64,000 bases of DNA, taken from positions 112,808 through 176,807 of IMG/VR virus record IMGVR_UViG_3300032285_004073; one strand, given 5' to 3'. Of this stretch, positions 6,502 through 52,209 are shown piece by piece. Under the pieces are notes generated by a model that saw only the letters and a program-made list of their open reading frames with translations, was not told the DNA's origin and did not search any database. Position 1 is the first letter of the stretch, and each line of letters opens with the position of its first letter. A program made the position numbers and the translations under genes. The DNA comes from a virus.

Positions 6502-6507
6502 TAGACA

Positions 6508-6957: not shown

Positions 6958-6968
6958 TATTATTTCTG

Positions 6969-7448: not shown

Positions 7449-7449
7449 G

Positions 7450-7477
7450 TTGATTTATTATACACTTATATTAAAAT
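7450..7477 (+). promoter_or_regulatory. Sigma70-like promoter TTGATT-16-TAAAAT
   Basis: TTGATT (7450-7455) and TAAAAT (7472-7477) lie in the divergent gap between gp16 and the small gene at 7484. The -10 box ends exactly 6 nt before the ATG, again predicting a leaderless message. Confidence 0.45.
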
Positions 7478-7483
7478 ATAGCA

Positions 7484-7660
7484 ATGACAACGAAAATACT
7501 TATTGAAAACGGTGGAGAATTTCATATTCCCCATGAAAAAGTTGCAGAATTGATTAATTGGTTAAATCACGCTCAGGCAATTCGCACGACACCAAAAACA
7601 GAGCAAGTCAAAGAAATTATTAACAATCAATTTACTGGAAAAGAATTGATTAATGGTTAA
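7484..7660 (+). CDS. Small unknown protein (58 aa)
   Basis: The short frame encodes MTTKILIENGGEFHIPHEKV and continues with AELINWLNHAQAIRTT. It is a complete gene between a plausible promoter and the dUTPase gene, whose ATG is 9 nt downstream. No domain was recognised. The regular alternation of strand and helix, and its place at the head of the dut/clamp-loader run, support a real gene. Confidence 0.6.
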   Translation: MTTKILIENGGEFHIPHEKVAELINWLNHAQAIRTTPKTEQVKEIINNQFTGKELING

Positions 7661-7669
7661 AATACCTTT

Positions 7670-9057: not shown

Positions 9058-9617
9058 GCGTAACGTTTTTCAAATGCTCCAGAAGCTGGAATAGAAGTAT
9101 TTTTAGTAGGTAAAGATTGATCTTTCGGTCTATTGCCTAAAGCCCCAAAATCATTTTTTAATTCCTCCGGTTTAGACCCAATGGGTTGTTCATATTTATT
9201 AGGAACACCTTGGACCGGTGGTAAATTATTACCAAAACGCAATACTTCAATATATTTTAAATCTCCAGGAACCTCAAATTCATTAAATTCTGTAGGATAT
9301 TGAACAGTTCGAGGATCACATTTTAAAACTAATACAACATTATTAGAACCGGCAATACTATTTGCATCTTTAGCATTAGCATTATTGGAATTGCCATTTA
9401 CTTCACTAATAAAGAAAAAGGTATCAGGGTTTTGTTGTAAAATGTTTTGAATCCAAGAATGGAACAATTCATCTGTTTCATATCTTTGTTTATAGAAATC
9501 AGACTTAAAAAACTCTGGTCTGAGTTTTACTGGTGTTCCGGTGCGAAAACCTCCGTTTGTATAGTGGGCAAAGGCTCTTTCACATAAGGTTTCGAATTTA
9601 TTGAATTTTTGACTCAT
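9054..9617 (-). CDS. Unknown conserved phage protein (187 aa)
   Basis: I cannot assign a function. The N-terminus FETLCERAFAHYTNGGFRTG, then TPVKLRPEFF, looks like a conserved phage family seen near head and baseplate genes. The C-terminal third is Pro/Asn-rich and probably disordered (PIGSKPEELKNDFGALGNRP). No membrane segment or signal is visible. It is divergent from the gp25-like gene, with a 37-nt gap that carries a CTAAATAT late-like box on the plus strand. Confidence 0.55.
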   Translation of the reverse strand: MSQKFNKFETLCERAFAHYTNGGFRTGTPVKLRPEFFKSDFYKQRYETDELFHSWIQNILQQNPDTFFFISEVNGNSNNANAKDANSIAGSNNVVLVLKCDPRTVQYPTEFNEFEVPGDLKYIEVLRFGNNLPPVQGVPNKYEQPIGSKPEELKNDFGALGNRPKDQSLPTKNTSIPASGAFEKRYA

Positions 9618-9654
9618 AGATATTGTATGTTAGACCTAAATATTTACCTCCGAC

Positions 9655-10161
9655 ATGGCAACTATTCACATAGATAATTTAATTAACCCTCGTCAAGTTA
9701 ATTCAAAGGCTACAGTTTTGACTCAACCTAATAAACCAACTGTAGCTGTTTATACAGATTTACACTTAGATTTATCCGAAATTTATAATATTGGAATAGG
9801 AACAAATCCACAAAAATCTAATGATATTAAAGTAGATAATGATGCAGCTGCTATAAAAAATTCTTTATATAATATTTTTACAACTATTCCCGGACAAAAA
9901 ATATTAAATCCTTCTTTTGGTTGTAATCTTAATCAATTTGTATTTGAAGAAGTATCTGAAATTAAAGGTAAAATAATAGGTGATACTATTTTAAATGCTA
10001 TTAATGTCTATGAACCCAGAGTTCAAGTCCTAAATATACAAGTATATCCTTTACCAGATCAACTGATGTATTACATTATTATGTCATATCAAATGGTTGG
10101 GATAGCTAGCACATTTTCAACGCAAATACAAATATTTCCAAATAATATCTTAATAGTATGA
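9655..10161 (+). CDS. Baseplate wedge protein, gp25-like
   Basis: The 168-aa protein (T4 gp25 is 132 aa) has the GPW/gp25 core: AAIKNSLYNIFTTIPGQKIL, NPSFGCNLNQFVFE, and YEPRVQVLNIQVYP. The T4 equivalents are SIKNSLLGIITTRKG, FDPEFGCDLSDQLFE and NYEPRIDKL. Gp25 sits at the sheath-baseplate junction and starts sheath assembly; it is conserved in contractile systems generally. The extra N-terminal 35 residues are not in T4. It overlaps the gp6 gene by 4 nt (ATGA). Confidence 0.9.
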   Translation: MATIHIDNLINPRQVNSKATVLTQPNKPTVAVYTDLHLDLSEIYNIGIGTNPQKSNDIKVDNDAAAIKNSLYNIFTTIPGQKILNPSFGCNLNQFVFEEVSEIKGKIIGDTILNAINVYEPRVQVLNIQVYPLPDQLMYYIIMSYQMVGIASTFSTQIQIFPNNILIV

Positions 10162-11957
10162 GTAACATCCCTTCCACACCAAATGATTATGTAGCCTTTG
10201 ATGCTACTAATATTAGCGATTTAATAATCAATCGTTTAAATCAAGGTCAGGTATTCACTGATCAAAATTATCAGGGATCTAATATGTCTGCTATTATAGA
10301 CATTATTAGTTATTCTTTTAGTACCTTATTATTTTATCTTAATAAAACAGCTTCAGAAAGTCTTTTTTCAGAAGCTCAGGTGTATGAAAACATGAATAGA
10401 ATTGTTAAACTTTTAAATTATAATCCTCTTGGTAGAATTACACAAAACGTACCTTATACTTTAAACTCTTCATCTTCCTTACCAGCTGGGAACTATATAA
10501 TCCCTCGTTACAGTTATATAAAAGTAGGAGCTGATACGTATTCATTTAATACAGACATAGCTTTTACAAATTCAGCAAACGGAGTAATTGAATTACAAAA
10601 TGTAAATTCTGATTTTTTCCTTTACCAAGGCCAATTTCAAGAATATCCTATATATTCGGCTCAAGGAATTAATAATGAAATACTTTATATTAGCTTGGGA
10701 TCTGACACTTATGTAGACCATTTTAATTTATTTGTTTATGTTAAAGATGTAAACACCGGATTATGGACTCAATGGAAACAAACTCCTAATTTATTTTTAA
10801 ATAAATCCACAGATAAAAATTATGAAATAAGATTTAATGCAAATAAAAATTATGAAATTAAATTTGGTGATAATATTAACGGATCAGCATTAAATGATGG
10901 CGACAAAGTCTTGGTATATTATTTAAATATAAATCCAAACGCTACAGCATTAGCAGCCAATACATTAAACAAATTACCAATTGCTCTCTATAATAGTGTA
11001 AATTACAATCAAATTTTAAATAACACTATTTCTAACCCAACATATATAATACCTCAAAATTATTTAAAATATGTAACTATTAATAATGATTATCCTTCTA
11101 ATCCTTATTCTGAAGAGGAAAGCGTTGATAGCATAAGAAATAACGCACCTAAAAATTTTAGTTTCCAACAAAGATTGGTCACAGCTAATGATTTTCAATC
11201 GTATATAAATTCAAATTATGCTCATTTATTTGCCAATAGTTCCGTAGTTAATAATGACGATTATTTAAGTGGCCATATAAAATATCTATATAACATAGGT
11301 ATAGATTCTCCGCAATCTGATAATAATATTTTATACAGCCAAATTAAATTTGCGAATAGTTGCAATTTTAATAATGTATACGTTTATCTTGTTCCTAAAA
11401 ATTCCACACAACAATACGTAGCAGCTTCGCAAAAGGAATTTATAATATCTGAACTACAAGAAAAAAAGGTTTTAACATCAGAAGTTGTGATTATAGATCC
11501 GGTTTATATGGCTTTAGATTTCTATGCCAAATCACCTTATTCTAAACCTTCAACTAATGACATTAATAATAGTAAACTTTTAATTTACAAACAATCTCAT
11601 AGTAGAAGATCTCCAGCTGGGATTCAAGCTGATGTAATAGCTTTAATTAAAAAGACATTTAATAATCAGACATCGACATTAGGTCAAATGATTGATTTGC
11701 ATAAATTGACAAATGATATTTTAAATATTGATGGAGTAGATCATATTCAAACATATAGAAGTGATACAGATTCTTATGCAGAAGGTATTTCCCTTTTAGT
11801 TTGGAATAATTCTTATCCTCAATTAGACGTTTATACAACATCTCAAAATATACAATTACAATACTTTCAATTTCCAGTATTTAATAACATAAACAATTTA
11901 ATTAATAGAATTCAAATTGTTGATAACAGTGGTGTAATTCAAGTTTCGGATTACTAA
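10158..11957 (+). CDS. Baseplate wedge protein, gp6-like (Baseplate_J)
   Basis: The 599-aa protein (T4 gp6 is 660 aa) starts in the T4-like way: DATNISDLIINRLNQGQVFT, then MSAIIDIISYSFSTLLFYLN. The C-terminal half has the J-protein features, with a basic RRSPAGIQADVIALIKKTF and the later VDHIQTYR. Gp6 dimers link wedges into the inner baseplate ring. The ATGA overlap with the gp25-like gene suggests coupled translation, and the order gp25-gp6 is standard for contractile tails. Confidence 0.88.
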   Translation: MSNIPSTPNDYVAFDATNISDLIINRLNQGQVFTDQNYQGSNMSAIIDIISYSFSTLLFYLNKTASESLFSEAQVYENMNRIVKLLNYNPLGRITQNVPYTLNSSSSLPAGNYIIPRYSYIKVGADTYSFNTDIAFTNSANGVIELQNVNSDFFLYQGQFQEYPIYSAQGINNEILYISLGSDTYVDHFNLFVYVKDVNTGLWTQWKQTPNLFLNKSTDKNYEIRFNANKNYEIKFGDNINGSALNDGDKVLVYYLNINPNATALAANTLNKLPIALYNSVNYNQILNNTISNPTYIIPQNYLKYVTINNDYPSNPYSEEESVDSIRNNAPKNFSFQQRLVTANDFQSYINSNYAHLFANSSVVNNDDYLSGHIKYLYNIGIDSPQSDNNILYSQIKFANSCNFNNVYVYLVPKNSTQQYVAASQKEFIISELQEKKVLTSEVVIIDPVYMALDFYAKSPYSKPSTNDINNSKLLIYKQSHSRRSPAGIQADVIALIKKTFNNQTSTLGQMIDLHKLTNDILNIDGVDHIQTYRSDTDSYAEGISLLVWNNSYPQLDVYTTSQNIQLQYFQFPVFNNINNLINRIQIVDNSGVIQVSDY

Positions 11958-11962
11958 AATAG

Positions 11963-22536: not shown

Positions 22537-22627
22537 AGGGACAATTTCTGGTAAATATTATTAATCAATTCAACAATAGTGACCAGCAATGGTTCTATGG
22601 GGCAACCCATTGGCTTGAGAAAGGATT

Positions 22628-26410: not shown

Positions 26411-26428
26411 TAAGGTAATTATATTATA

Positions 26429-27079
26429 ATGTCTTTTTATAGTTCTACCATATTATTATCAAACTCTAATACAATAAATGTTAGTAATTATGCACCTTTT
26501 TATTTAAGTGTAGATCCTTCTGGAGTTACAACTCCTAATTTAGTTAGACAAATAGATTATATTTGGGGAGACGGTACTTCTCATTCTCAAGTATTAAATC
26601 CGAACCCAACGAGTAATGGTGATCCCCGAAATTATATACAAAATAAACAATTTCTTTCCAAGGATCCGGTTTTATCAGTTTATTTAATAAAGGTTAATGT
26701 TTACACATTAGGGTCTTCAGATCCTATCACTTTTACAATTAACTTAAATTTACAAAATCCTCAATTAGAATCTAATAATATTTTTAATGAATTTCACCTT
26801 GTTAAAACAAAAATGTTTGGACCTGATAACCAGATGCTATATACATTTGAAACTCAAAATCCTAATAACATAATGATGTCTGTCGTTAATTGGAAAAATA
26901 AATCAGCGCCATTATCACTACCTAAATCACCTTTTGTGATTGAAAATAGACCTTATCAACTCACTCAACCTTTAGGATTATCTTCAACTCAACCAGCCAA
27001 AGACATAACAATTGAAAATCCTGCAGATACACCACCCAATCCGGATTTTGGAACCTCAATAAAACGCTTATATCCTTAA
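26429..27079 (+). CDS. Unknown tail-module protein (216 aa)
   Basis: No family was recognised. The early segment YAPFYLSVDPSG ... IDYIWGDGTSHSQVL contains WGDG, typical of PKD-type domains (W-x-D-G/G-D-G), and later strands (VYLIKVNVYTLGSSDPITFT) fit a beta-sandwich. The C-terminus is Pro-rich (ENPADTPPNPDFG). Its position between fibre genes, with only one base to the next start, suggests a small structural or adaptor protein. Confidence 0.5.
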   Translation: MSFYSSTILLSNSNTINVSNYAPFYLSVDPSGVTTPNLVRQIDYIWGDGTSHSQVLNPNPTSNGDPRNYIQNKQFLSKDPVLSVYLIKVNVYTLGSSDPITFTINLNLQNPQLESNNIFNEFHLVKTKMFGPDNQMLYTFETQNPNNIMMSVVNWKNKSAPLSLPKSPFVIENRPYQLTQPLGLSSTQPAKDITIENPADTPPNPDFGTSIKRLYP

Positions 27080-27080
27080 T

Positions 27081-27764
27081 ATGAATTTATACTCTGATAT
27101 TAACAATGCTGGTGAACTTTGGTTAAAAGATTTTCAAAGTAATATAAAACCAGCTTACAATTTACTTTCATCTATATTTATAAAATATAAAAATAATCAA
27201 AATTTTTATCAAGATTTAAATTCTAATAATATTTTAAAATTTGATACTTTTTATGATTCACTTTTTATACAAACAAAAAGTGGATATATTTTTGAAAAAA
27301 TAACAACAAAAGATAATGGCATTTTTCCTTATAGCCAATTTTCAACATTTACATCTTCAACTTCTACAAATAATATAGATTACTGGTTAGACGAAAAATC
27401 TAAAAAAGTATATTTTTCTGGATTTAATGATTTATTGGATTTCAATACACACAAAATTATTTTTTCTATATTTTTAAAAGAATTTAATTTAAATGATGGA
27501 AAGATAAATGATTTATTTTCTCGCACCATAATTCTACCATTATGTTCCGCGCCTACATGGACCAATAGTAATGGGATAAAAGAGGACCCTAAATTAACAT
27601 ATAATCCAGATACGGATTTATTTAATATTTCTTTTTTGATAAAAGATATCAATTTGAATATAGGATTAATAAGTGTTAATTTTGATACTCAAAAAATAGA
27701 TGCTATAAACACTTTTATACCTTTTGTAGGATCGGTTGACATACCTAACATAACAATAAATTAA
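27081..27764 (+). CDS. Unknown tail-module protein (227 aa)
   Basis: No recognisable domain. The protein is rich in Asn, Phe, Ile and Lys, with predicted strands (YIFEKITTKDNG, KIIFSIFLKEFNL) and no signal or membrane segment. It starts one base after the preceding stop, so it is in the same operon and probably part of the tail. Local base composition is very AT-rich even for this genome. Confidence 0.5.
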   Translation: MNLYSDINNAGELWLKDFQSNIKPAYNLLSSIFIKYKNNQNFYQDLNSNNILKFDTFYDSLFIQTKSGYIFEKITTKDNGIFPYSQFSTFTSSTSTNNIDYWLDEKSKKVYFSGFNDLLDFNTHKIIFSIFLKEFNLNDGKINDLFSRTIILPLCSAPTWTNSNGIKEDPKLTYNPDTDLFNISFLIKDINLNIGLISVNFDTQKIDAINTFIPFVGSVDIPNITIN

Positions 27765-37558: not shown

Positions 37559-38017
37559 TTATGGTCTGACCATAGAAAGCAAATAACTACCCTTGTTAAG
37601 GATGGTTAAAATATCTTCCTTAGTATTATTAAGACCTGAACATACTGTATTTACAAAAGTATTAAATTCCACAGAGGACAGTATATTCTTAAGTTGTGTA
37701 CTAATATCATTATAAGAATTAATAGTAGTAGCCGGGTCTACATTATATTGTGACAAATCTTGAGTATCTATTTGTAAATTGAAGGATGGGAATATTGCAT
37801 TATAAGATTTAGTTGTTCCTATAATCTCTTCCTGAAGCTTGTCAAAGGATTCGTCTAGACTTTCATATACTTCTCCTAATATTTCATGTACATTAATATC
37901 TTCTGCATACCAATGGAGTAGATGAATATGAGTTTGGACAGACTTTAAAATTAAACCAAATACCCTCGTAGAGTCTAAAGAGTCTGGCGTTGTTATTTTG
38001 ACAATTTCTATTTCCAT
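37559..38017 (-). CDS. DUF5856-like (possibly ferritin/Dps-fold) phage protein
   Basis: The 152-aa all-helical protein has LILKSVQTHIHLLHWYAED, INVHEILGEVYESLDESFDK and LQEEIIG. The H-x-H-L-x-H-W ... HE-x-L-x-x-x-Y pattern resembles DUF5856 phage proteins, which look like Dps/ferritin helices. Metal binding is possible through these His/Glu residues but unproven. It ends 5 nt from the convergent adhesin gene and is the last gene of the minus-strand tail run. Confidence 0.5.
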   Translation of the reverse strand: MEIEIVKITTPDSLDSTRVFGLILKSVQTHIHLLHWYAEDINVHEILGEVYESLDESFDKLQEEIIGTTKSYNAIFPSFNLQIDTQDLSQYNVDPATTINSYNDISTQLKNILSSVEFNTFVNTVCSGLNNTKEDILTILNKGSYLLSMVRP

Positions 38018-38454: not shown

Positions 38455-39951
38455 TTAATAAAATATACTAACAGAACCACTTCCCCCTTCTTGCCCCCAT
38501 CCAAATCCATTTGCTTTACCGGTATACGTATCTTTAATAGGTGCTCCCTTCCCTCCATTTTGTGTATACCTTATGATAAATCCTTGAATTGATACATAAT
38601 CCTTTCCATCAGAACCCGCATATGCTCCATTGTCTTTATCAACAACTATACCTCCTATTCCTCCGTTTAACCCTCCTCCTCCTCCACCACCTGCACCACC
38701 ACTAGAAGAAGTTTTATTAGTACCTTTATTCCCGGCAATAGCACCACTAGAAGTGTATGAAAGTTTAGCCTGGCCTGCTGATAGTGTACCTGCGCCACCA
38801 CCTCCTCCGCCTCCCGCAGCAATTAATTTTATTTTATCATTAATAGAAACAACTGTAGCTCCTCCACCTCCACCTCCACTACCTCCATAAAGCCCTTTGC
38901 CTAAAGAACCTCCATTTCCTCCATTATAATTCAAAGAATTTTTACCTCCATTACCGCCAAAATCCGCCGGTCTTTTATTATTAAAACCAGGGTAACCTCC
39001 ATAACCTATGGATATCTTAATTTTATCACCAGGTGCTACAGGGATCACTCCATCTAATTCATGGCCACCATTTGCATCTCCTCCTTTATGATTGGCAGTA
39101 GCTCCGCCTCCTCCGCCTCCCCCTCCTATAGCCACCACTGTAATAGAGGTTATCCCATCAGGGACAGTCCATACGCTATCTTTTATAAAATCTATTTTAT
39201 TTTTATTGAGATTAGGTAATGACAAAGGCTGATTGGCTGCTAGAGATGTTGATAAGGTATTAACAAAAGTTAATGGTGAATAAACTGAATCTCTAAAAAT
39301 ATAATTTACATATGTCCATACATTGTTTATATTTTGAAATTGTACAATTATAGCTTGTGAGATATAAACACTTTCTCTTGATAAATTTACATTCATTAAT
39401 CTATCCCAATATCCAAAACTCTTAGGACTTTTGGCAGTTGCTAAAAGGTGATCTGAATTTTTAATATTAGGTGCATAACTATAAGGGAAGAATGTTAAAT
39501 CTATAATAGTATTTTGCGGATAATCTTTTGTAGAATAATTGGTAGTTAACCAAGATTGTCCAACGTGTTTTAATTTAGCATCAACAAAATTATCTATATC
39601 TTTTGTATTTGTAGATTTTAATACTAACGGTGATCGGTTGGCATCTATAGGATACAACACAGAAAATTCTAAATGGCTCCAAGCAGCACTTAAAACGTTA
39701 ACCGTTGTTATAGCTCGTAAAATGTTATCAACTTTGGCCTCTGTGTATGATGCGCTTAATGTTTTATAGTTAGAAACCAATGAAGAAAAGTTGTTAAAAA
39801 TATTCAACAGATTACTATCATTATTATAAAAGATACTGGAAAGATTGCATATAGTTGTATCTAAAGATAATACATTATAATTATGTTTACCTACAGAATC
39901 ACCCACACTGTCATTTATATCTATATTTAAAGTAGGTATTATACAGTTCAT
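38455..39951 (-). CDS. Tail adhesin with glycine-rich C-terminal domain
   Basis: The 498-aa protein begins with a domain (SVGDSVGKHNYNVLSLDTTI) shared with the proteins at 39948 and 40761, likely a baseplate attachment module. From about residue 258 it becomes glycine-rich: SVWTVPDGITSITVVAIGGG, then GGATANHKGGDANGG, GDKIKISIGYGGYPG and several GGGGGGG runs. The pattern matches the glycine-rich tip in the convergent gene at 35205. I infer a receptor-binding protein with polyglycine-II packing. The gene start overlaps the upstream stop by 4 nt. Confidence 0.65.
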   Translation of the reverse strand: MNCIIPTLNIDINDSVGDSVGKHNYNVLSLDTTICNLSSIFYNNDSNLLNIFNNFSSLVSNYKTLSASYTEAKVDNILRAITTVNVLSAAWSHLEFSVLYPIDANRSPLVLKSTNTKDIDNFVDAKLKHVGQSWLTTNYSTKDYPQNTIIDLTFFPYSYAPNIKNSDHLLATAKSPKSFGYWDRLMNVNLSRESVYISQAIIVQFQNINNVWTYVNYIFRDSVYSPLTFVNTLSTSLAANQPLSLPNLNKNKIDFIKDSVWTVPDGITSITVVAIGGGGGGGGATANHKGGDANGGHELDGVIPVAPGDKIKISIGYGGYPGFNNKRPADFGGNGGKNSLNYNGGNGGSLGKGLYGGSGGGGGGATVVSINDKIKLIAAGGGGGGGAGTLSAGQAKLSYTSSGAIAGNKGTNKTSSSGGAGGGGGGGLNGGIGGIVVDKDNGAYAGSDGKDYVSIQGFIIRYTQNGGKGAPIKDTYTGKANGFGWGQEGGSGSVSIFY

Positions 39952-40760: not shown

Positions 40761-41549
40761 TTAGCTTTTTATAACCCATTCAAATTTACCTGGATTGTAG
40801 GGATCTGGGTTTGATATCAATTCATAGGATATAGTTTTATATACAAACCTATCATAATCACTTGCTTGGTATTTAATATTAAGCTTAGATCCTCCTGAAC
40901 CAGGACAAGAAAAATTTACAGTAGTATCAGGCGTTGTATTAGTACAATGTGTTTTGGCATCAGAACAAATATGTTGACCTTTAATATCTTGGTTACAACC
41001 TATGGTTCTTCTAGGGTCTGGACAAGGTTTACATTGAATTAATACAGTTCCGTTACTAGGTTTACAGGTTTCTAAATAACTTTCTGAAAATTTAAAATTA
41101 AAGGTATTATCATAATACAATTTAACAAACAAATTAATCACTTGATATGGAGAATAGTTATTAGTAGGGAAATTAAGTTTGACCCAATCTAATAACATAT
41201 TAGCTGATGGGCTAGCTGACCATGTATTATAATTGAGGATTTTGGGGTAGTATAATGAGAATTCATTTACAGACCAAGAAGCACTTAATGTTTGCACCGT
41301 GTTAATAGCTCCGTAATAATTTTGTATTATTCGCTGTATGTTTAAACTCATGTTTTGCATGGTAGCACTAAACTGATTCACAGTAGTACAAAGTGCTTGC
41401 CAATTATTTAAATCCCTTGACAAACTTAACAGATTGGAACTCAGCACTACAACGTTAGTATTAATAATATCAAGAGAATTTCCAACACAAGAATTCTCAT
41501 CTATTAAATCTATATTAGCGCAAGTAGGATCGGTTTTATGTAATTCCAT
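40761..41549 (-). CDS. Tail protein paralogue with Cys-rich C-terminus (262 aa)
   Basis: The N-terminus DENSCVGNSLDIINTNVVVL is related to the IGDSL domain of its downstream neighbours, followed by the same segment types (LSASWSVNEFSLYYPKIL, LLDWVKLNFPTNN). The C-terminal region is Cys-rich (LETCKPSNGTVLIQCKPCPD, HICSDAKTHC). I start at ATG 41549, two bases after the stop of the peptidase gene, rather than at an overlapping TTG at 41561. Likely a baseplate-attached fibre component. Confidence 0.55.
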   Translation of the reverse strand: MELHKTDPTCANIDLIDENSCVGNSLDIINTNVVVLSSNLLSLSRDLNNWQALCTTVNQFSATMQNMSLNIQRIIQNYYGAINTVQTLSASWSVNEFSLYYPKILNYNTWSASPSANMLLDWVKLNFPTNNYSPYQVINLFVKLYYDNTFNFKFSESYLETCKPSNGTVLIQCKPCPDPRRTIGCNQDIKGQHICSDAKTHCTNTTPDTTVNFSCPGSGGSKLNIKYQASDYDRFVYKTISYELISNPDPYNPGKFEWVIKS

Positions 41550-41551
41550 TT

Positions 41552-44500
41552 TTATTTCCAATTAATCTTATAAAGAGATGTATGCACAGGTGAGAATTTA
41601 TTTAAAATTCTTTTTATAGCATTTTGTATACTAACCTTTACATTATCACTTACATTCAAATTACGTATATTAATATTATAATATTTACTTTTACTTCCCT
41701 GGAGTTGAAATTTAAACCAATGTTTAATTTCTTCTACATAATTTCTAGTGCCTATTTGCATATCCCAATTCAAAGTTTTAAACTCTGGCGCAAATTCTGA
41801 TGAATGATATATTTGTTGCATCTCCCCGGTTGTTAAATATATATTATACATTCTTAAATCTGCAACAGATCCCACAAAACGATATCCTTGTGTAGAATTT
41901 AAAAAGTTATTTAAAATAGTATTTTTTACAGAAGCTGCTCCGAGAAGTAAAGATGTTCTGTAATCGTAATGTAATTGTTGAGTATTAGGAAAGAAATTAG
42001 TATGACTTACTGCAATGGCATCAACCATATACTGAGCAAATCCCTGCGTACTATCAAAAACCAAACTAAAATGATGCCACCCAGGAGAAAGAGAAGATGG
42101 GTCAAAATTTAATGATATTAATCTAGCATAATTATTATCCGCATCTGCAACCTTAAATTTCCAACACAAATTATGTCTGGTTGAATAATATTTTCTTAAA
42201 TTTTGATATCCAGTAAAATCACCTTTAGAAATAAAATTTATAGAATCTTGAGGATTAGTTAATCCTCCTAAATTTATTCGAGATACAGCTTGTCCGTTTT
42301 GATCTATAAGATAAGCTTCATTGACCGTGGAATCAATCATTACCATTAAATCATCATGGTAAGAAGATAAAGAACATTTATTAGTTAATAAAGGAGAATC
42401 TATAAAATTAATATATCTATTGCGTTCCTTATTTTGTGTAGACGGATAAGATGTATAAGAATCCTGTGTAGTTACTTTTAATAAATTTTCCTGGGCTAAT
42501 ATATAAGCTGGTTCTTTGTCAGTTGTTGAAAGGAAATGATAATCTTCTTCTAAAGAAGAACTCATAATAGGAATCTGCACTGGTTTAGGAACCGGACAAT
42601 TACTTTGATCTAATAAATTAGAACCTAGGCTATAAGAAAATACAAAATTACCTTTAGAATCTATTTTCGTATATTTTTCATCATTAGATATAATCCAAAG
42701 ATTGTTTTCTCGATCACAAGTTATTTGTCTAGATAACCCTACAACTCCAAATATATTTCTATTCTTATAGAGGTTAATACCTATTATTTCCCAGATATTA
42801 TTATTGTTATCTATAACTGAGGCATTACCATAAATCTCTATCAACTTATTGTTCAAATCTATTTCTATACGGTTAGTAGAAGAAGAAACAGAGACAAGAG
42901 ACACATAGCTACAATTAGCGTCTAATAACATATATTTTTTAATACTGTTATCGTATATATAGAAATAACCAACACTATTCATTTCTATTTGATCAATCTG
43001 TTTTAAGAAAGAAGCATTGGGAATAGTTCTGTCTATAATAATTTTATTATCTGGATCATATTTTATAGCTCTAAAATTTAAAGTGTCAAAGACCCAATAA
43101 CTATAATCTGGTAATCTTTGAACTATACTAAAGGAATGATAATTTGGATCTAGATTGTTTACAGTATTTAAAGAAATAGTATTTTTAGATATTTCGGAGA
43201 ATCTATAATTTAGATTGTGTATACTATTAGTAGCATTATTAACAATTGTTAAAACAGGAGCCTGTAAACGAGATTCGTTTATTAAACCAAATCCGCTACC
43301 GTAATAGTTACCAAATATTTGATACCCATTAATATTACTCCAGTCATCAGCTTTGACCCAGAGAGAAACTGATAATTTATCATTTGGCAATAAACTATCT
43401 GTAGCCGGAAATACTGCATAATTTTCACCAGTCAAATTAAAATAATTGTCTTTAAAATCTGTAGGCAAACTATTATAAACCAATCCATTATTACTAAATA
43501 CAGAACTGTCTATTAATGGCGAAGACAACCAATCAGTTATAGTCAATACATTAGAAGGACTATTGTTAACATAATTGTAATTTAAAGAAGGTAAAAAGTT
43601 TTTACTATCTGATCTCCCTGTGTGATGATACTTATAAAGTATTCCTGGCTTTAAATTTACTTGAGATACTATATCATAGATATACGGTAGGTCTGGATTT
43701 AATCTATCATTATAAACTAAAGAAGTCGCTGATAATGCTTGATCCGAAGTATAATAAGCTGAATTATAATATCTATCTTTCCATACTAAAGAATTATCGG
43801 AATTTCTACATAACCAAGAACACAACCAAATATTATTCACATCATTAGAAGAAAACAAATTCAACCCAGTTGTATGTTCTGTATAACTATAAGCATTGGT
43901 GTAGATTCTATCTGAAACACCTGGTAGTTCTCCTCCTACTGCTCCACTCTCAATAAAACCAGCTTCATTAATAGAAACAATATTTGATGTAGGACTATAG
44001 AAAAAATAGGTATCACCTACAGGCAATTCCATTTTTAATGTATTAGTTTGATATCCTAGGTGAATAGAATTTAATCCACCAGACTGATTAGTACCAGAAT
44101 ATATTTTCGTATATATTCTATTATTGGATAAATTATTATAGTTGTATTCTGTGGTCTGATAATTTTTTAAGGGATGAAAATATAAATCAGTTTCCGCTCC
44201 AGAGGATGTTATATTGAAATTTTCTGTAGGGAATATACCAAGATAATTTTGAAGATAATTTGTATTTTTAGAATATACATGTAAACCGTTTTGAACATTT
44301 AATGGTGATGCTTGATACTTCACTAAAAAACTATTTGCCACACTATCAAAAGATTTTGTTTTACTTTGATAGGAAGACAAATAAAAGACTGCATTAGTTG
44401 GTAAAGCCGAAGTAGGGTCTATATTGACTAGAGATAAAACACCATCAACACTTGCTACTATGTTATTAAAATTAGATCCTGCAGAGAATAATGAAATATA

Positions 44501-46276
44501 ACGATCTCCTAAAAGGTAATCGAATAATTGACTAGAATCTATGTTAGCAGAATTTTTTAAAGGAGTGAATTTTAATTCATCATTCACAATAGTTAAAATT
44601 TGTCCTTGGTTATTTTCTATATATACCTGTGACTTATAAAAATTAAATTTTAATTTATTAATTTCATTGATGTTAGAGAAATATGTATTGATCAACATGC
44701 TGTCGCTAACACCGAAAATATTACCATCAATATCTGCTAAAGGACTTTCTATTAAAGATAATTTATTTGTGATTTCCGGTAGATTATTATCTGATAATAT
44801 ATTGTCGTTTTGGTTTAATGTAGTTAAGAATATACCGTTTTTATTATTAAATGTGATATCTTGTAAATTTTGGAGACCATCAAATATATTAAAAGACATA
44901 CCATTACTAAAAGTAACTGGAGTTTTAGATAATTTTAGTTGTTCTCCTATGATATTAAAATCCAAAGCATTCCAATAGACTCCAGAAAAATTTTTAACAT
45001 GAATTGCTGGTGTTGGTGTAGGAGGAAGTATTACATCAAAATTATTATGAGAAGTAACTGGTGGTGTAGAAGTAACTGGTGGTGTAGAAGTAACTGTTTG
45101 AAATTGAACTAAATTATTGACTCTAGGTGATCCCAAACCTGTAACCAAATCATAGCCGATTGAATTACTATATCCATTACTACCGCTGGTTATGTCTATA
45201 AAATACTTAGAATAATTGGAACTAGCTAAATTATACAAAGTGGTGTTTATGTTTTCTTTACCTACAATATTTAAACCAGCACTGTTCATTTTTGCTATAA
45301 TAGCAGCCCATTGAGGTGCACCAGCACTGGTCCCCACCGTAGAATACCACCCCGAAAGATTGGTATTAGGGTTAGTCATATAAACAGCTACGCCAGCTCC
45401 ATTAACTTCTCCAGCATGATATGATACATCAGGTATTCCTCTTCCTACAAAAGAATTAAAGCCATTTTGATAAGAAGGTCTAGCATTTATATTACTAATT
45501 CCTCCTCCACTACCAGACCAGCCAACCTCTGTATATGTTCCTTGATAAACATTATAATGTGTAGGTGTACCACCATATAGTACAGTACCACCCACTCCCA
45601 ATACATATGGTGAAGCAGCAGGCCAATTTATCTCTGCACCCCAATCACCAGCAGCTGCAACATATTGTGCACTTGTGTTTTCAAATAAAGTATCTGGATA
45701 ATGACCAACCTGATAATCATATCCTTGATAACAAAAACTCATGGATAATATATTGGCTTTAAGTGTATTAATAGCATAATCAATACACTTAAAGACATGA
45801 TATCCGTCTGGATCCACTATTAATGCAATATTAGCAGATAATGCCATAGCATGTGCATATTGCACGTCTAAATTTGTTTCCAAAGCCCATCCTGAATCAT
45901 AGCTAGAAGGCGTTCCGAAAGGGTAATATATTTGAATATTAGTAGAAGGTATTCCTGCCGCAGCGCAAAATGTATCTAGATCTGATTGTACATTAGGATT
46001 ACCAAATACATCTATAATAGCTATAGTTTGACCAGCACCATCAGAATTAAAAGATCCACTAACTATATTTGTTACAGAATTAAATCCATAATAATCATAT
46101 AAATTAGAAGGTACCAACCAACCATTTCCCGTAGGAAATGCTGCAGAAGTTACTGGAGCTGGGATGGTATCTCCATTTATATAAGAACCTGTCTCACCAG
46201 TTAAATTACCATTTTCATCTGTGTACCCCCATCTAATTAAAGGCACTGGTTTAACATTTGCTAAAGGATCTTCCAT
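41552..46276 (-). CDS. Giant tail protein with intact S53 (sedolisin) peptidase domain and LamG
   Basis: The 1574-aa protein carries a complete S53 serine-carboxyl peptidase domain at residues about 55-395. E133 and D137 lie in WALETNLDVQYAHAMA, the oxyanion Asp D211 in AAAGDWGAE, and the nucleophile S317 in GTSAGAPQWAA. The calcium site is DITSGSNGY ... GYDLVTGLGSP (D361 onward). The usual long activation pro-domain is absent. A STPPVTSTPPVTS linker follows, then propeller-like and two LamG-like regions (KLSVSLWVKADDW, SVADLRMYNIYLTTGEMQQI). No signal peptide is visible. It probably digests a host surface protein or itself during adsorption or assembly. Confidence 0.8.
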   Translation of the reverse strand: MEDPLANVKPVPLIRWGYTDENGNLTGETGSYINGDTIPAPVTSAAFPTGNGWLVPSNLYDYYGFNSVTNIVSGSFNSDGAGQTIAIIDVFGNPNVQSDLDTFCAAAGIPSTNIQIYYPFGTPSSYDSGWALETNLDVQYAHAMALSANIALIVDPDGYHVFKCIDYAINTLKANILSMSFCYQGYDYQVGHYPDTLFENTSAQYVAAAGDWGAEINWPAASPYVLGVGGTVLYGGTPTHYNVYQGTYTEVGWSGSGGGISNINARPSYQNGFNSFVGRGIPDVSYHAGEVNGAGVAVYMTNPNTNLSGWYSTVGTSAGAPQWAAIIAKMNSAGLNIVGKENINTTLYNLASSNYSKYFIDITSGSNGYSNSIGYDLVTGLGSPRVNNLVQFQTVTSTPPVTSTPPVTSHNNFDVILPPTPTPAIHVKNFSGVYWNALDFNIIGEQLKLSKTPVTFSNGMSFNIFDGLQNLQDITFNNKNGIFLTTLNQNDNILSDNNLPEITNKLSLIESPLADIDGNIFGVSDSMLINTYFSNINEINKLKFNFYKSQVYIENNQGQILTIVNDELKFTPLKNSANIDSSQLFDYLLGDRYISLFSAGSNFNNIVASVDGVLSLVNIDPTSALPTNAVFYLSSYQSKTKSFDSVANSFLVKYQASPLNVQNGLHVYSKNTNYLQNYLGIFPTENFNITSSGAETDLYFHPLKNYQTTEYNYNNLSNNRIYTKIYSGTNQSGGLNSIHLGYQTNTLKMELPVGDTYFFYSPTSNIVSINEAGFIESGAVGGELPGVSDRIYTNAYSYTEHTTGLNLFSSNDVNNIWLCSWLCRNSDNSLVWKDRYYNSAYYTSDQALSATSLVYNDRLNPDLPYIYDIVSQVNLKPGILYKYHHTGRSDSKNFLPSLNYNYVNNSPSNVLTITDWLSSPLIDSSVFSNNGLVYNSLPTDFKDNYFNLTGENYAVFPATDSLLPNDKLSVSLWVKADDWSNINGYQIFGNYYGSGFGLINESRLQAPVLTIVNNATNSIHNLNYRFSEISKNTISLNTVNNLDPNYHSFSIVQRLPDYSYWVFDTLNFRAIKYDPDNKIIIDRTIPNASFLKQIDQIEMNSVGYFYIYDNSIKKYMLLDANCSYVSLVSVSSSTNRIEIDLNNKLIEIYGNASVIDNNNNIWEIIGINLYKNRNIFGVVGLSRQITCDRENNLWIISNDEKYTKIDSKGNFVFSYSLGSNLLDQSNCPVPKPVQIPIMSSSLEEDYHFLSTTDKEPAYILAQENLLKVTTQDSYTSYPSTQNKERNRYINFIDSPLLTNKCSLSSYHDDLMVMIDSTVNEAYLIDQNGQAVSRINLGGLTNPQDSINFISKGDFTGYQNLRKYYSTRHNLCWKFKVADADNNYARLISLNFDPSSLSPGWHHFSLVFDSTQGFAQYMVDAIAVSHTNFFPNTQQLHYDYRTSLLLGAASVKNTILNNFLNSTQGYRFVGSVADLRMYNIYLTTGEMQQIYHSSEFAPEFKTLNWDMQIGTRNYVEEIKHWFKFQLQGSKSKYYNINIRNLNVSDNVKVSIQNAIKRILNKFSPVHTSLYKINWK

Positions 46277-46304: not shown

Positions 46305-49300
46305 TTAAGATTTAAATAACCCGTAATTGTTACCAAATACATCAGTTCTCCACTGATTTAAGACGCCCTTATTAGTTAGTAAAGAAGTAATTCTATCATT
46401 ATATGAATTAAAACTTAATTCGTTTCTGAAAGTAGGAGGATAGTTAGGCCCTCCAGTCCAAACTTTAAAATTATTAGGATCCCAAAATTGAAAATTATCA
46501 CTTTGAGTACTGAGACCTATTTGATTTTTAGTATCAATTTCGTAACTAGATTGATAAGGGACTAATTTTTGATTATTAACTGTATCTATAATAGTACCAG
46601 CTACCTTTCCAGCATAGTATGGTTGAAACATCCAACTATTATCTACATGATTAATAATAACCGGTGCTAGTTGATCATTTTTTGATAAACCTCTATTTCT
46701 TGGACCATATTTCTCTATATCTAAAAACAACAATTCAGCACTTATAGAATTGAAATAAGTTACACTATTAAGATCTAAACTTATATTATATCCTTTACCT
46801 CTGTAATAAGAAGTACCAAATCTATCTGGCGACATATAACCACCCGTCTGGGTTTTTGAAACCATATTAGAAGGGAATGATACTGTAGCAACTGTAGGGA
46901 AATGCACATTATCTAAATTAGCATAAGGTTCCATTGCTTCTGTTACTAAACTAGAAACGACCGGGAAAAAACTATTATTGCAAAAATTAATATTATATAA
47001 ATTTTGTGTATATTTAAATGGATTTCTAGAATAGTAATTATACTTTGCTGGTTTGAAATCTGAATAACTTTCTAATGTTAAATCACTCTTTTCGTCTGTG
47101 GAATAAGTTACTAAATTTAAAAGAGTAGAAGGTGTCAAATTATAACAAGAGTTAGGAGCCTCTTTATTAATAATCAGTTTATTCCATTGAATATTAAAAG
47201 TAGGAACAGTAAATGGTAAAAATTCTTTCCAATCAATGTTACGATTGCTTCTGTTTATATATTCTATATAACAGTTATTATTTAAAACCATCTGAGATAT
47301 TTCTGGTTGGCTTATAGGAACATAATCATTTACAAATCTAATTTGACCTGCAAAGCTCATGGTTTGCTTATTAAAATTGTTAACCGAATCCGTATTTACA
47401 TATACTTTGCCCCAGAAAGGTTTAGCTCCAAAATTAACTCCTACAGCACTTAAACTATATTGGTTAGTACCATAATCCCAGCCATCCAATTTGACATTAA
47501 TCGGAAATGATATACTAGGTGTATTGAAACTACCTTTCAAAGCATCTGTATGTATAACTGAAGAACGATGACTATATTTGATATAATCTCCAGGTCTTAG
47601 AACCATATCCGATGGAATAAAAGTTTGTGTCCAACTACCGTTTGAAGATAATATAGCCTTATACCAAGAAGGTATCCCAGGACCACAACCTAATAATTTT
47701 AAAGAATAATATTGAATAAAATTATTCAAATCACCGTCTGAGTCTAATAGATAATTTCGTAGATTAAAATAACAACCATCAGAAGACATGGTCTCCATTA
47801 TTTGGTTATAACTTGCATAGTAACCTATATCCATAGAGGTTATTTCTACGCCTGTGTTTTTAATTTGTAAAGCTATTGGTATAGCTTGACCTATGTTATT
47901 AGTTTCTTGACCATCACTAAATATTAGAATTTTTTTAGAAGCATTTGGTCTAGGGCAATTATCATAACTTGGTAATTCTGCAACCTGATTTATAGTTTCG
48001 TTTAAATCTATACAAGCTCCTGATAAATTTGAAACAGAACAACGATTATCTGCAGGATAATTTGTATAAAGAATTGTCTGAGCTAACTGTAATGCATCAG
48101 ATATATTTGTAGAGAAATTGGGATAATCTTCTATATTAGTTTGATTTATTTTATCTAATATATAATATATATCTTTAGTTAAAAATGATAAAAGTTTAAC
48201 ATTACTATCAAAAGATATTAAAGATATTTTAACATCAGCTTGAGTATTGTTTATAGAGACCGCCAAAGACTTTAATAATTGTTTAACAGTGTCAATATCA
48301 AATCGTTGACTTCTACTATTGTCTAACAATACAACTAAATCCACTTGACCAGAAAAATTATTAGGACAATTGATGCTTAAATTATTATATACATGATTTA
48401 TTACAAGATAAGGAACAGTAGCATTTGTTGATGCTGTACTGATTTTAAGAGGATTCCTATAATAGGTATATCTTCTCCCTGTCTTTAATATCATAGGCTT
48501 ATTGTTCCCAGTTTGCCATTTACCAGTACCAAAACCTATATCTAAATCCTTAGTACCATCTATCTGGAAAAAAGAAAATTGAGGACTATTATAAACATTT
48601 AAACCTCTAGTATCAATCCAATTATCTATTTTAAAACTAGAACCAAGACCAAAAGGATCAGCGAAAAGATAATCTGCCATTCCATAATAATCTTTAAGAG
48701 TCTGTCCTTGATTGCCTATAGGTGAATGATTAACAGCTTTGCAAGTACAAGGATGAGTATTAAGAGGAAAAGATTTTGTATTGTTTAAAGGATTTGGATT
48801 TTGGTAATCTTGATTAGTATAAAAATCATGAGGAAATGATTTACCATAAGCACAATCACTAGAATGTTTACAATAATAAAATACATCTTCTGCTGGAGTA
48901 TCTGGTCCTAACCAAATAAATGAAGTATATCCTCCTTCATTAACTTTAAAATTGAGAGAGCTTTGTATAGAACTGTCTATGTAATTAGCGCAATGTGTAG
49001 CTGGAGTGTCGTATACTGGAATAGAATTAACAATGTCGAGTTGACTCAAAGAACCACTTCCTAACCAAGCGGCTTCAATAGGATCGTTATTTACACCAAA
49101 ATTTAATTTATAAATTACATCTGCTTCATTTAAAGTAGTACCTGCAACAGCTCCGGACATAGCATATCCGTTATGTATGTCTTTTAACGCAATGGGTAAA
49201 CAAACTTCTTTATCTAGGGTTGCTGGGACATTAGATGTAGTACTATCAATAACAGTTAAAGGCCAATATATATTATTATCACCTACTGATATAGGTAAAT

Positions 49301-50795
49301 TAGTATAATCAAATTTATATAAAAATGCTTGTTCTGTTGCACTTAAAGAATTGTCTGAATAAACGGAATTAATTCTTAAGTTATTTTCTCTTTTAATAAT
49401 ATTGTCTGCAACATCAGAAAATTTACCAGCTAAAGATCCTTGATTTACTAAACTAGTTTGATTGAGATAAAGATCTGAACCAGAGGACAAAGGAGTAGAA
49501 GATGTGTAATATTTTGATAATATCTTTTGTTTAATAGTAGGATCAAGAACTTCAAATAAAGGTTGAGACTCATCATTTATACTATATTCTTTAAAATCTA
49601 AACTCTTGTAATCTAATTTAAAACCTACATAAGGAAATAAAAATGAAGTAGTGTCATTAGCCTTTAATGTTTTAGCAAGAGTATCATAAACTGTTTGTTG
49701 TGATATACCTTTTAACCAAGCACCTTCTATGACTCCATTTTTATCAGTAAAGATTAAATCGGAATCTAAATAGCTATTACCTGTAACATAACGATTCAAT
49801 GTAAAATTAGAATCATTAATATTAAGAGGTTCAAATATATTAGTAAAAACATCTTCGTTAGTAATTTTATCGCCACTAGGCCAATAGAACCAATTATTTC
49901 CATATTGGAAATCTAAATTCATTATATAATCAGGAGGTCTATTATCCTCGGTTAAAGGTACAGCAGTTAACCCATAAACATTTTCTCCTAGATATTTTTG
50001 AGAACCTATAATTTGATTATTGATTAAAGATGTAAAAGAAGAAGAAAGGGCTAGAGTCGAAAGAGTGGAAAACGATGTAAGGTATTGATTAAAAATTTTA
50101 GATAGAGGAGTAGGAGCAACTCTTGAAAGGAATCGAGTTGATAACAATCCGTTTATTTCTGAATCAGATAAATCAGTAAAAGGTTCTGCATCTGTAAAGC
50201 TTATATATTCATCTATAGAAATTGAAGGATCTGAATCATGGTAATTGTTTTTATCATATAATTCTTCTATTTCTATAAAGAAATCTTCTTTAACTTCCGA
50301 CAACTCCGGATAAAATGATGCTAATGGTGATACTGGAACTCTAGTATATGAATAATCTTTTTTTGTAAAATTGTTTAAAACATATTCATATAAAACATTT
50401 TCTAAACCTAAATTAGAACCATTTAAACTATCTCTGGTTTTAGTTCTTTTTAAAAATTCTCTTTTGGATATTATTATTTGAGATATCTCTTTGAGCTTAT
50501 GTGCAATATAAGGAATAACATAAATTAGATCTTCATCCTTTGTATAGTCAATATCTGATAAGAACAAATCTCTTTCGTCTTGATTAAAAAGATGGGTCAG
50601 ATCTTTTATTAATTGTATATATTGTTGTTTAACACTTTGAGATATCGTATAAGATGAATTTTTAGTATTACTATTCTGATACCAGGAATTAAGATAATCT
50701 AAATAGACTCTTTGAGATGTATCACCAGAACTGCCTTGTTCATTAGCCCAGTCTTGATACGATAAAGGTGTAGAAGTGTTTAACGAAATACTCAT
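46305..50795 (-). CDS. Giant tail protein with von Willebrand A (MIDAS) domain
   Basis: The 1496-aa protein has a von Willebrand factor A domain at about residues 815-1035. The metal-ion site is complete: D825-x-S827-x-S829 (VVLLDNSRS), T896 (NFSTNISDAL) and D961 (ILIFSDGQET). Such domains bind ligands through a divalent metal in integrins and pilus tip adhesins. The N-terminal 200 residues are helical; residues 280-680 hold related segments (GAWLKGISQQTVYDTLAK, AAWLGSGSLSQLDIVN). A run of Cys (YYCKHSSDCAYG, HPCTCKAVNH) lies near 640-690. A virion protein contacting the cell surface is likely. Confidence 0.75.
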   Translation of the reverse strand: MSISLNTSTPLSYQDWANEQGSSGDTSQRVYLDYLNSWYQNSNTKNSSYTISQSVKQQYIQLIKDLTHLFNQDERDLFLSDIDYTKDEDLIYVIPYIAHKLKEISQIIISKREFLKRTKTRDSLNGSNLGLENVLYEYVLNNFTKKDYSYTRVPVSPLASFYPELSEVKEDFFIEIEELYDKNNYHDSDPSISIDEYISFTDAEPFTDLSDSEINGLLSTRFLSRVAPTPLSKIFNQYLTSFSTLSTLALSSSFTSLINNQIIGSQKYLGENVYGLTAVPLTEDNRPPDYIMNLDFQYGNNWFYWPSGDKITNEDVFTNIFEPLNINDSNFTLNRYVTGNSYLDSDLIFTDKNGVIEGAWLKGISQQTVYDTLAKTLKANDTTSFLFPYVGFKLDYKSLDFKEYSINDESQPLFEVLDPTIKQKILSKYYTSSTPLSSGSDLYLNQTSLVNQGSLAGKFSDVADNIIKRENNLRINSVYSDNSLSATEQAFLYKFDYTNLPISVGDNNIYWPLTVIDSTTSNVPATLDKEVCLPIALKDIHNGYAMSGAVAGTTLNEADVIYKLNFGVNNDPIEAAWLGSGSLSQLDIVNSIPVYDTPATHCANYIDSSIQSSLNFKVNEGGYTSFIWLGPDTPAEDVFYYCKHSSDCAYGKSFPHDFYTNQDYQNPNPLNNTKSFPLNTHPCTCKAVNHSPIGNQGQTLKDYYGMADYLFADPFGLGSSFKIDNWIDTRGLNVYNSPQFSFFQIDGTKDLDIGFGTGKWQTGNNKPMILKTGRRYTYYRNPLKISTASTNATVPYLVINHVYNNLSINCPNNFSGQVDLVVLLDNSRSQRFDIDTVKQLLKSLAVSINNTQADVKISLISFDSNVKLLSFLTKDIYYILDKINQTNIEDYPNFSTNISDALQLAQTILYTNYPADNRCSVSNLSGACIDLNETINQVAELPSYDNCPRPNASKKILIFSDGQETNNIGQAIPIALQIKNTGVEITSMDIGYYASYNQIMETMSSDGCYFNLRNYLLDSDGDLNNFIQYYSLKLLGCGPGIPSWYKAILSSNGSWTQTFIPSDMVLRPGDYIKYSHRSSVIHTDALKGSFNTPSISFPINVKLDGWDYGTNQYSLSAVGVNFGAKPFWGKVYVNTDSVNNFNKQTMSFAGQIRFVNDYVPISQPEISQMVLNNNCYIEYINRSNRNIDWKEFLPFTVPTFNIQWNKLIINKEAPNSCYNLTPSTLLNLVTYSTDEKSDLTLESYSDFKPAKYNYYSRNPFKYTQNLYNINFCNNSFFPVVSSLVTEAMEPYANLDNVHFPTVATVSFPSNMVSKTQTGGYMSPDRFGTSYYRGKGYNISLDLNSVTYFNSISAELLFLDIEKYGPRNRGLSKNDQLAPVIINHVDNSWMFQPYYAGKVAGTIIDTVNNQKLVPYQSSYEIDTKNQIGLSTQSDNFQFWDPNNFKVWTGGPNYPPTFRNELSFNSYNDRITSLLTNKGVLNQWRTDVFGNNYGLFKS

Positions 50796-51004: not shown

Positions 51005-51577
51005 ATGAATGATAAAAATTTACAACAACGCTTAAAAGAAGAGACTGCAGAGTTACATCGTGAGTCGGAACAACACCCTTTGATGCAATCATTTGTAACA
51101 GGTTCTTTTAAAAAAGAACACCTACTGGATGTATTAATTAATCTCCTTCCTATCTATCAGGTTGTAGAACAACGACTTATCTCTAAAGAAATTATTAACA
51201 ATCCAGAACTCAAGAGAAGTATTAATATTCAAAAAGATATTGATAAACTTGTGCAAGACATAGGTTTAGGTAATCGACAAGTAAGAAAGATTACATCACA
51301 TTGGTTATCTTTTTCTTGGTCTAGAAAATTAGATCTCTTAAAGGGTGATCTCTATCTCAGATGGTTGGCAGATTTCTATGGAGGAAGAATTCTTGCCAAG
51401 TCTCAAGCACCCTATAATGAAACATATGCTTCAGAAAACCCAGGTGCAGTTATTACTACAGTAAGATATATTTTAGATCAAACCTCAAATGATACTACAG
51501 ACGACGAAATTGTAGAGCATACTAAGGGATTTTTTAAATTTCATATTCAGTTATTTGAAGATATATGGACCAATTAA
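51005..51577 (+). CDS. Heme oxygenase (biliverdin-forming)
   Basis: The 190-aa protein opens LQQRLKEETAELHRESEQHP, matching L-x-E-x-T-x-x-x-H of heme oxygenases, with H18 as the proximal heme ligand. YLRWLADFYGGRILAK (117-132) matches the distal-helix signature Y-x-R-Y-L-G-D-L-S-G-G-Q, with G126/G127. It would open heme to biliverdin IX-alpha, CO and iron using host ferredoxin. It is shorter than cyanobacterial enzymes (about 230-240 aa), as phage versions often are. It overlaps the bilin reductase gene by 13 nt, so both are co-translated. Confidence 0.88.
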   Translation: MNDKNLQQRLKEETAELHRESEQHPLMQSFVTGSFKKEHLLDVLINLLPIYQVVEQRLISKEIINNPELKRSINIQKDIDKLVQDIGLGNRQVRKITSHWLSFSWSRKLDLLKGDLYLRWLADFYGGRILAKSQAPYNETYASENPGAVITTVRYILDQTSNDTTDDEIVEHTKGFFKFHIQLFEDIWTN

Positions 51578-52209
51578 GACAGTATTTTGATACCATTACA
51601 CAAGACTTTAATAGTCTTTTAGGTTATTCAAAAACAGGACCTAGTAATTTTATTAGACCAAATTGGATTAACAATTACTACGAACATCATAATCCAGCGT
51701 TAAGACATGCCCATCTTCAGTATTATAAAACTGATAGAATTGGTATTGTACACCTCAACGTATTTCCACAACCCACAATTGATTATCCTATATTAGGTGC
51801 AGACTTAATTGAAATTGGTGGCAAGATTACTGGGTTCTTTCTTGATGTAACACCTATTCATAAAAATCAAATTATACAAAAATCTCTTATACAATTTAAA
51901 AGTATATTGAAGTCACCTCAAAGAAAATTACCAGAATGGGCTAATTTCTTTAGTGAAAATTTTATCTGTATTACACCAGATGAAAATGAAATTGATTATA
52001 TTATGAATAGTTCGAGATATATTATACGTAACTATCTTATTAATCTTAAATTGTATAAAGACAAATATAAGGAAAATATAAAAAAGCAAAATGATTATTG
52101 TATTGGACAAAAGAAAAACGATAAGACATTTAAAGCATTAGCAGCTGATATCGGCGAAGAAGAAGCTAAAAATTTCCTTAATAATTTTATGTTCCCAGAA
52201 ATAGGCTAA
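51565..52209 (+). CDS. Ferredoxin-dependent bilin reductase (PcyA/PebS/PcyX superfamily)
   Basis: The 214-aa protein has the family core VHLNVFPQPTIDYPILGADL, then IEIGGKITGFFLDVTPIHK. The central Asp D94 in FLDVTP corresponds to the catalytic Asp of PcyA (D105, in LDFQP). The C-terminal ALAADIGEEEAKNFLNNFMF resembles the family's final helix. It would reduce biliverdin made by the upstream heme oxygenase, probably to a phycobilin. Which product (phycoerythrobilin, phycocyanobilin or other) cannot be settled by eye. Marine phages carry PebS or PcyX in the same gene order. Confidence 0.85.
   Translation: MDQLRQYFDTITQDFNSLLGYSKTGPSNFIRPNWINNYYEHHNPALRHAHLQYYKTDRIGIVHLNVFPQPTIDYPILGADLIEIGGKITGFFLDVTPIHKNQIIQKSLIQFKSILKSPQRKLPEWANFFSENFICITPDENEIDYIMNSSRYIIRNYLINLKLYKDKYKENIKKQNDYCIGQKKNDKTFKALAADIGEEEAKNFLNNFMFPEIG

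Follow-up and report, generated by a model that had tools for sequence, protein, structure and literature searches.

The DNA analysed here (hereafter the window) is a 64,000-nucleotide stretch, positions 112,808 to 176,807, of IMGVR_UViG_3300032285_004073, a 176,807-bp IMG/VR record of a T4-like aquatic phage known from metagenomes only. A minus-strand gene of the window (46276..41552), which starts with ATG and has no internal stops, encodes a 1574-residue tail protein in which a short leader is followed by an S53 (sedolisin) peptidase domain, a TP-rich linker (TSTPPVTSTPPVTS) and a long LamG-containing part (Table 1). The assignment of residues 47-399 to family S53 is, in our judgement, close to certain. 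A phmmer search against all PDB sequences matched solely kumamolisins, the best being 4ne7 (kumamolisin-As; E = 2.7e-16, residues 78-400), and in these alignments E133, D137, D211 and S317 face the kumamolisin catalytic E, D, D and S, with D211 opposite the N of 1zvj (D164N) and S317 within GTSAxxP. The C-terminal calcium motif (Asp-Ile/Val ... Gly-x-Asp) is predicted by alignment at D361, I362, G374 and D376. For residues 40-405, an AlphaFold2 (AF2) model computed from an alignment that combined 29 cellular S53s, one phage relative and the window domain itself reached a predicted local distance difference test (pLDDT) score of 86.5 and a predicted TM-score (pTM) of 0.90. When this model was searched against the PDB with Foldseek, kumamolisin-As ranked best (1sn7, 5.0e-23), together with Pseudomonas sedolisin and with a TM-score of up to 0.79, and subtilisins appeared only from about 1e-11 to 1e-10. 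Because the model favours sedolisins (5e-23) and the domain keeps 36 of the 37 columns whose conservation among cellular S53s reaches 95% or more, a chance match was excluded. Thus, the complete tetrad and the calcium-site motif claimed in the original prediction, which had been made from the sequence alone, were both recovered, and the sedolisin fold that it proposed to verify by structure prediction was found; the Pfam match that it also proposed as a check did not materialize, since Pfam, like NCBIfam and PHROGs, called neither S53 nor S8 on the 1574-residue protein. PF00082 (S8) was absent from the protein and from the whole 176,807-bp record, and a PADLOC search detected nothing.

Table 1. 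Features of the tail protein, its gene neighbourhood and related S53 genes (window coordinates unless a locus label is given)
Feature	Coordinates	Strand	Remark
Tail protein, 1574 aa: N-terminal S53 sedolisin, TP-rich linker, LamG-containing C-terminal part	41552..46276	-	
Short leader, aa 1-46	46139..46276	-	No signal peptide, no pro-domain
S53 (sedolisin) peptidase domain, aa 47-399	45080..46138	-	Sequence and fold matches
Catalytic E133	codon 45878-45880	-	
Catalytic D137	codon 45866-45868	-	
Oxyanion D211	codon 45644-45646	-	
Nucleophile S317	codon 45326-45328	-	
Predicted Ca site, D361/I362/G374/D376		-	C-terminal in S53 domain; by alignment
TP-rich linker, aa 400-423, module boundary	45008..45079	-	S53-less homologues begin at aa 424-429
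Tail protein common to S53-less relatives L059/L066, L063 and L065, aa 424-1574	41552..45007	-	41-51% identity
LamG/pentaxin (concanavalin-like) region, aa 1398-1505	41762..42085	-	Below cut-off here; above in L063 homologue
Upstream gene, 1496-aa baseplate-cluster protein with VWA domain (aa 819-1014)	46305..50795	-	
Downstream gene, 262 aa if from ATG (TTG open reading frame to 41561)	40761..41549	-	Kept in all relatives
Downstream gene, 268 aa	39948..40754	-	Kept in all relatives
498-aa protein with Gly-rich domain	38455..39951	-	L065 homologue matches PHROG tail fibre families
T4-type baseplate wedge genes (gp25-like, gp6-like)	9655..11957	+	Establish myovirus tail
Lipoprotein-type S53s	L072:2738-4021, L077:5593-7119, L078:225-1586, L079:5644-8208, L080:2677-3891, L081:5743-7020, L083:253-1503		

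The fold of the domain is that of kumamolisin, kumamolisin-As and sedolisin (PDB 1gt9, 1sio, 4ne7 and 1ga1; TM-scores of 0.72-0.79 on the query), with which it has in common the Glu-Asp-Ser plus Asp tetrad, the GTSxxxP motif and the C-terminal calcium site; unlike those enzymes, the window protein lacks both pro-domain and signal peptide and is joined to a tail protein of 1150 residues. A long N-terminal activation pro-domain is usual in characterized S53s, although the family is defined by the peptidase unit, of which the pro-domain is no part. Only 46 residues precede the S53 domain in the window protein, and no Pro-kuma_activ (PF09286) match was found across the whole record. This leader contains no signal peptide (maximum 15-residue hydropathy of 0.57 within the first 70 residues), and by eye a W/Y-'GNL'-type motif in it recurs in the related loci L002 and L071 and, loosely, in L068. 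The sequences closest to the window domain are cellular S53s from metagenome-assembled genomes of a gammaproteobacterium (L007) and a member of the Verrucomicrobia (L008), at 43% identity each; these and the Paenibacillus protein L012 show the same motifs and likewise lack Pro-kuma_activ, but they differ in having signal-peptide-like N-termini and in being free enzymes of about 390-530 residues. More broadly, the nearest cellular S53s (L007-L009 and L012) consist of a signal peptide, a short leader and the peptidase with no PF09286 match, and more distant ones (L034 and L036) carry the pro-domain. The absence of a pro-domain noted in the original prediction was therefore real but is not a peculiarity of the phage: loss by the phage was discarded as an explanation, the pro-domain being absent from the cellular sister group too, and on sequence grounds its absence is most simply read as inherited from a pro-domain-less cellular subgroup.

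The gene set turned out to have four relatives, namely L002, L059/L066, L063 and L065. L002 encodes the same S53 fusion, with 55% identity over the protein and 62% in the S53 domain. The homologues in L059/L066, L063 and L065, in contrast, are proteins of 1116-1154 residues that begin at window residues 424-429, are 41-51% identical to the window protein and have no S53 domain; no S53 remnant was found next to them, and two of these three syntenic records are fragments. Because three syntenic relatives encode the protein from residues 424-429 onward without S53, sequence comparison indicates that the peptidase is an added N-terminal module on an ancestral tail protein. In L065 (IMG/VR 3300032223_002232) a gene for a 949-residue S8 subtilisin (5082-7928; PF00082, 1.9e-21; D156, H223 and S729 motifs; large insertions) lies directly upstream of the homologous tail gene, and its only relative, a weak one, among isolate or single-cell phages is MH319765. 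L065 thus has the same tail gene set as the window but differs in that its peptidases are separate genes and its tail protein starts at residue 429; its genome also carries a stand-alone S53 away from the tail gene. At 1-4173 of L065 we further observed a tail-region protein of at least 1391 residues that consists mostly of Thr/Pro-rich repeats (TPTNTPTVTP...) with a Gly/Cys-rich end. An assembly chimera in the window was ruled out by L001 (IMG/VR 3300037189_016767), a contig of another sample with the same genes and a 100% match in the S53 domain, and by the independent relative L002.

The signs of conservation point to a functional domain. Both fused proteins keep all four catalytic residues and the calcium aspartates at 62% identity, and their S53 domains agree at 52% of variable columns; the tetrad is invariant in 15 of 15 aligned phage S53s, some of them merely ~32% identical to the window domain. 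For the S53 part, nonsynonymous (dN) and synonymous (dS) divergence were 0.33 and 1.70 (dN/dS ~0.2), and for the rest of the protein 0.40 and 1.34 (~0.3), dS being near saturation; these ratios indicate that the S53 domain is under purifying selection. We consider the domain likely to be an active enzyme, possibly with a changed specificity.

That the protein belongs to the tail is indicated by its genomic surroundings. The T4-like markers of the record include Portal_T4 (1.4e-95), gp23 and gp21-type proteins, gp25 and gp6; its gp23 is ~36% identical to those of the best-matching isolates, which are cyanophages, and the phage therefore represents a deep, uncultured lineage. The tail gene starts 28 bases after the gene for the VWA protein and is followed by five more genes of the same orientation. 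In the 218-kb phage L060, whose record contains Portal_T4, the homologue of the VWA protein lies between gp25-gp6-gp7-like genes and a portal-like gene, and this position identifies the VWA neighbour as a baseplate-cluster protein. In L063 the homologue of the tail gene comes after homologues of the window tail-cluster genes 20506-27764, all on one strand. Portal_T4, gp25/gp6 and the L063 gene order together place the gene in the tail/baseplate cluster, in agreement with the earlier description of a tail protein within an adhesin operon, and we regard the 1574-residue product as very likely a virion tail protein, although no direct homology to any named T4 baseplate protein was found. In the window protein the LamG region reached 21.1 bits, short of the Pentaxin cut-off of 25, and in the L063 homologue 37.4 bits, beyond the Laminin_G_3 cut-off of 27.6. 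PDB profile searches with the C-terminal part and the VWA protein gave no match, and an AF2 model of the C-terminal 1151 residues was unusable (pLDDT 37). As a separate observation, the VWA domain looks like an insertion, as the 29%-identical L060 homologue (8926-13692) has no VWA match; extra domains would thus have been gained by both large proteins of the gene set.

A profile-guided scan of IMG/VR located S53s in 17 loci, a lower bound since the scan was pattern-based. The phage nature of L070, L071, L074, L075 and L081 rests on the IMG/VR classification. Stand-alone S53s without a signal peptide occur in L068 and L071, and in L074 the domain is N-terminal in a 664-residue protein; no tail homologue turned up for the C-terminal domain of the L068 S53. 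Lipoprotein-type signal peptides precede the S53s of L072 and L077-L083, of which that of L077 lies near a terminase large subunit gene and that of L078 near a QueE-like gene. These lipoprotein-type S53s appear to be peptidases that phages encode and that, once exported, act from the infected cell. In the tree the window, L002 and L068 domains formed a clade (support 100/97), which L071 joined with weaker support (76/87) and which adjoined a Verrucomicrobia S53 (75/87); the stand-alone S53 of L065 grouped with the window and L002 domains (100/97). The lipoprotein forms fell in two other places, which, taken with the window clade, suggests at least three acquisitions of S53 among viral contigs.

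In tblastn searches of 50,697 isolate phage records, among which ones close to the window may be missing, neither the full protein or its S53 domain nor the VWA protein, the S53s of L068 and L077 or the pro-domain-carrying S53 of L036 gave a match, and the literature on sedolisins and phages that was searched, with subscription journals mostly outside its coverage, gave no sign of a phage sedolisin. Against viral models, Foldseek returned giant-virus S53s (Terrestrivirus, Barrevirus, Sylvanvirus and Homavirus; E <= 4e-24) and, more weakly, cyanophage S8-type proteins; the former have the S53 fold but belong to viruses of eukaryotes and are not tail components. The closest parallel in architecture is SSCSM1_228 of the cultured cyanophage Synechococcus phage S-SCSM1, which combines PF00082 (2.9e-26) and Laminin_G_3 (1.2e-25) in one chain, is annotated 'baseplate wedge subunit (virion protein)' and lies within a tail fibre gene cluster. 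Like the window protein, it joins an N-terminal clan-SB peptidase to a C-terminal LamG in a T4-like tail fibre cluster, and the window protein fits this one-chain type; the peptidase families differ, however (S8, not S53), and the gp23 proteins of the two phages are only 36% identical. Forty-five virion proteins of S-SCSM1 have been identified by mass spectrometry (PMC9602691), a set that may or may not include SSCSM1_228. The 4120-residue baseplate wedge protein of S-SCSM1 was discarded as the peptidase carrier, as it contains no peptidase and the S8 domain lies in SSCSM1_228. Thus, the combination of a clan-SB peptidase and LamG in a T4-like tail is already known at the level of annotation, and an S53 version turned up neither in the 50,697 phage records nor in the literature searched. 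The earlier statement that S53 is undescribed as a tail component holds insofar as we found no previous report, but it has to be qualified by the S8-LamG precedent of S-SCSM1 and by the S8 gene beside the L065 tail gene.

We consider it marginally probable that the protein is a tail-borne S53 peptidase that would cut host surface proteins; taken by itself, a host surface protein as the substrate is rather likely. The LamG-containing part would be ancestral to the phage group, and the lineage of the window phage and L002 would have gained a catalytically competent S53 at its N-terminus via the Thr/Pro-rich linker. Because it has no signal peptide, unlike its cellular S53 relatives, the protein would most likely be built into the virion. 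With the lectin-like part gripping the host at adsorption, the tethered Glu-Asp-Ser peptidase, in which Asp211 completes the oxyanion hole, may cut surface proteins and, similarly to tail depolymerases acting on capsules, expose the receptor or open a path to the membrane. A virion enzyme acting on the host surface is suggested jointly by a variable peptidase at a conserved tail protein, another peptidase family in a relative, a lectin-like partner and the missing signal peptide. Several points weigh against this proposal. The Gly that follows SxS[FW] and takes part in substrate binding in kumamolisin and sedolisin is Cys in the window and Ile in L002, and both fused phage proteins have Leu in place of the invariant Pro146 of 'AHAxAP', so that specificity or activity may be altered. 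The most serious objection concerns pH: the S53 peptidases characterized to date work in acid, and the water around an aquatic phage is usually near neutral. Finally, L068, the closest clade member outside the fusion, is stand-alone and away from the tail cluster, and a tail location is thus not essential to this S53 clade.

Among the alternatives, an unlikely one is that the S53 domain serves maturation, processing either its own chain or adjacent fibre proteins as the virion is assembled, and then stays in place or is released at the linker. Its N-terminal position ahead of a flexible linker would suit such a role, as would the auto-processing of known sedolisins, which is general knowledge (for TPP1, PMC2914745). 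However, a gp21-type head protease is already encoded in the genome, and three syntenic relatives make the same C-terminal and downstream proteins, with clean starts at residues 424-429, so that assembly needs no S53 at the locus, an argument limited by two of the records being fragments and by the stand-alone S53 elsewhere in L065. Of the two functions put forward in the original prediction, cutting of the host surface is favoured over fibre maturation because S53 is missing in these relatives, whose tail protein starts just after it. We rate as rather improbable that the enzyme does its work at or inside the envelope of an infected cell, as an aid to takeover, nutrient release, superinfection exclusion or lysis, with the tail fusion incidental: phage S53s of this kind seem to exist, given the lipoprotein-type forms on other IMG/VR contigs and the stand-alone state of the close relative L068, but the window protein lacks a signal peptide, and its fusion partner is a tail protein within a tail gene set. 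The substitutions at the Gly after SxSF and at Pro146, unusual at otherwise well conserved positions, could also mark the S53 fold as an adhesive pseudo-enzyme that binds peptide-like surface structures; retention of the tetrad and calcium aspartates in both fused proteins, and of the tetrad in all 15 phage S53s, makes such a binding-only module quite improbable. That the domain is an S8 subtilase or a non-catalytic 'subtilisin-like' fold of the tail-sheath type is scarcely credible and was rejected, for although clan SB folds are similar, Pfam covers S8 with a single model that hits some S53s as well and the term subtilisin-like is applied to a sheath domain too (PMC12796325), Foldseek ranks sedolisins about ten orders of magnitude above subtilisins, the acid pair E133/D137 stands in place of the His/Asp arrangement and PF00082 gives no match.

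If the surface-cutting proposal is correct, the tail-borne peptidase points to protein layers such as S-layers, outer-membrane proteins and adhesins as the barrier that is removed. Tail enzymes known so far mostly cut sugars or peptidoglycan, whereas the sedolisin fold has a long history of study in acid catalysis. We tentatively suggest, at somewhat less than even likelihood, that sedolisins mounted on the tails of aquatic T4-like phages degrade proteins as depolymerases degrade capsules; that these would be part of a wider unreported set of phage S53s (tail-fused, stand-alone and lipoprotein), derived in three or more acquisitions from cellular S53s that lack a pro-domain; and that S53 and S8 may both have been recruited to the same tail region depending on the host surface. 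Since close relatives carry S53, S8 or neither of them at one conserved tail gene, the role of tail peptidases can be tested directly. Phage S53s can escape annotation, and standard profile libraries may miss them.

Other genes near the adhesin gene set were also recorded. A 152-residue protein (37559-38017) that matches phrog_858 (starvation-inducible regulator, Dps-like) closes the set in all relatives, and a 1260-residue protein of the tail cluster (22628-26410) contains an RCC1-like repeat region and is partly matched in 135 phage records, most of them of cyanophages. Genes for a heme oxygenase and then a ferredoxin-dependent bilin reductase (PcyX/PcyA-like) adjoin the adhesin gene set at 51005-52209; cassettes of this kind have been described for aquatic phages (PMC11480375), and the pair occupies the same place in L002 and L059.

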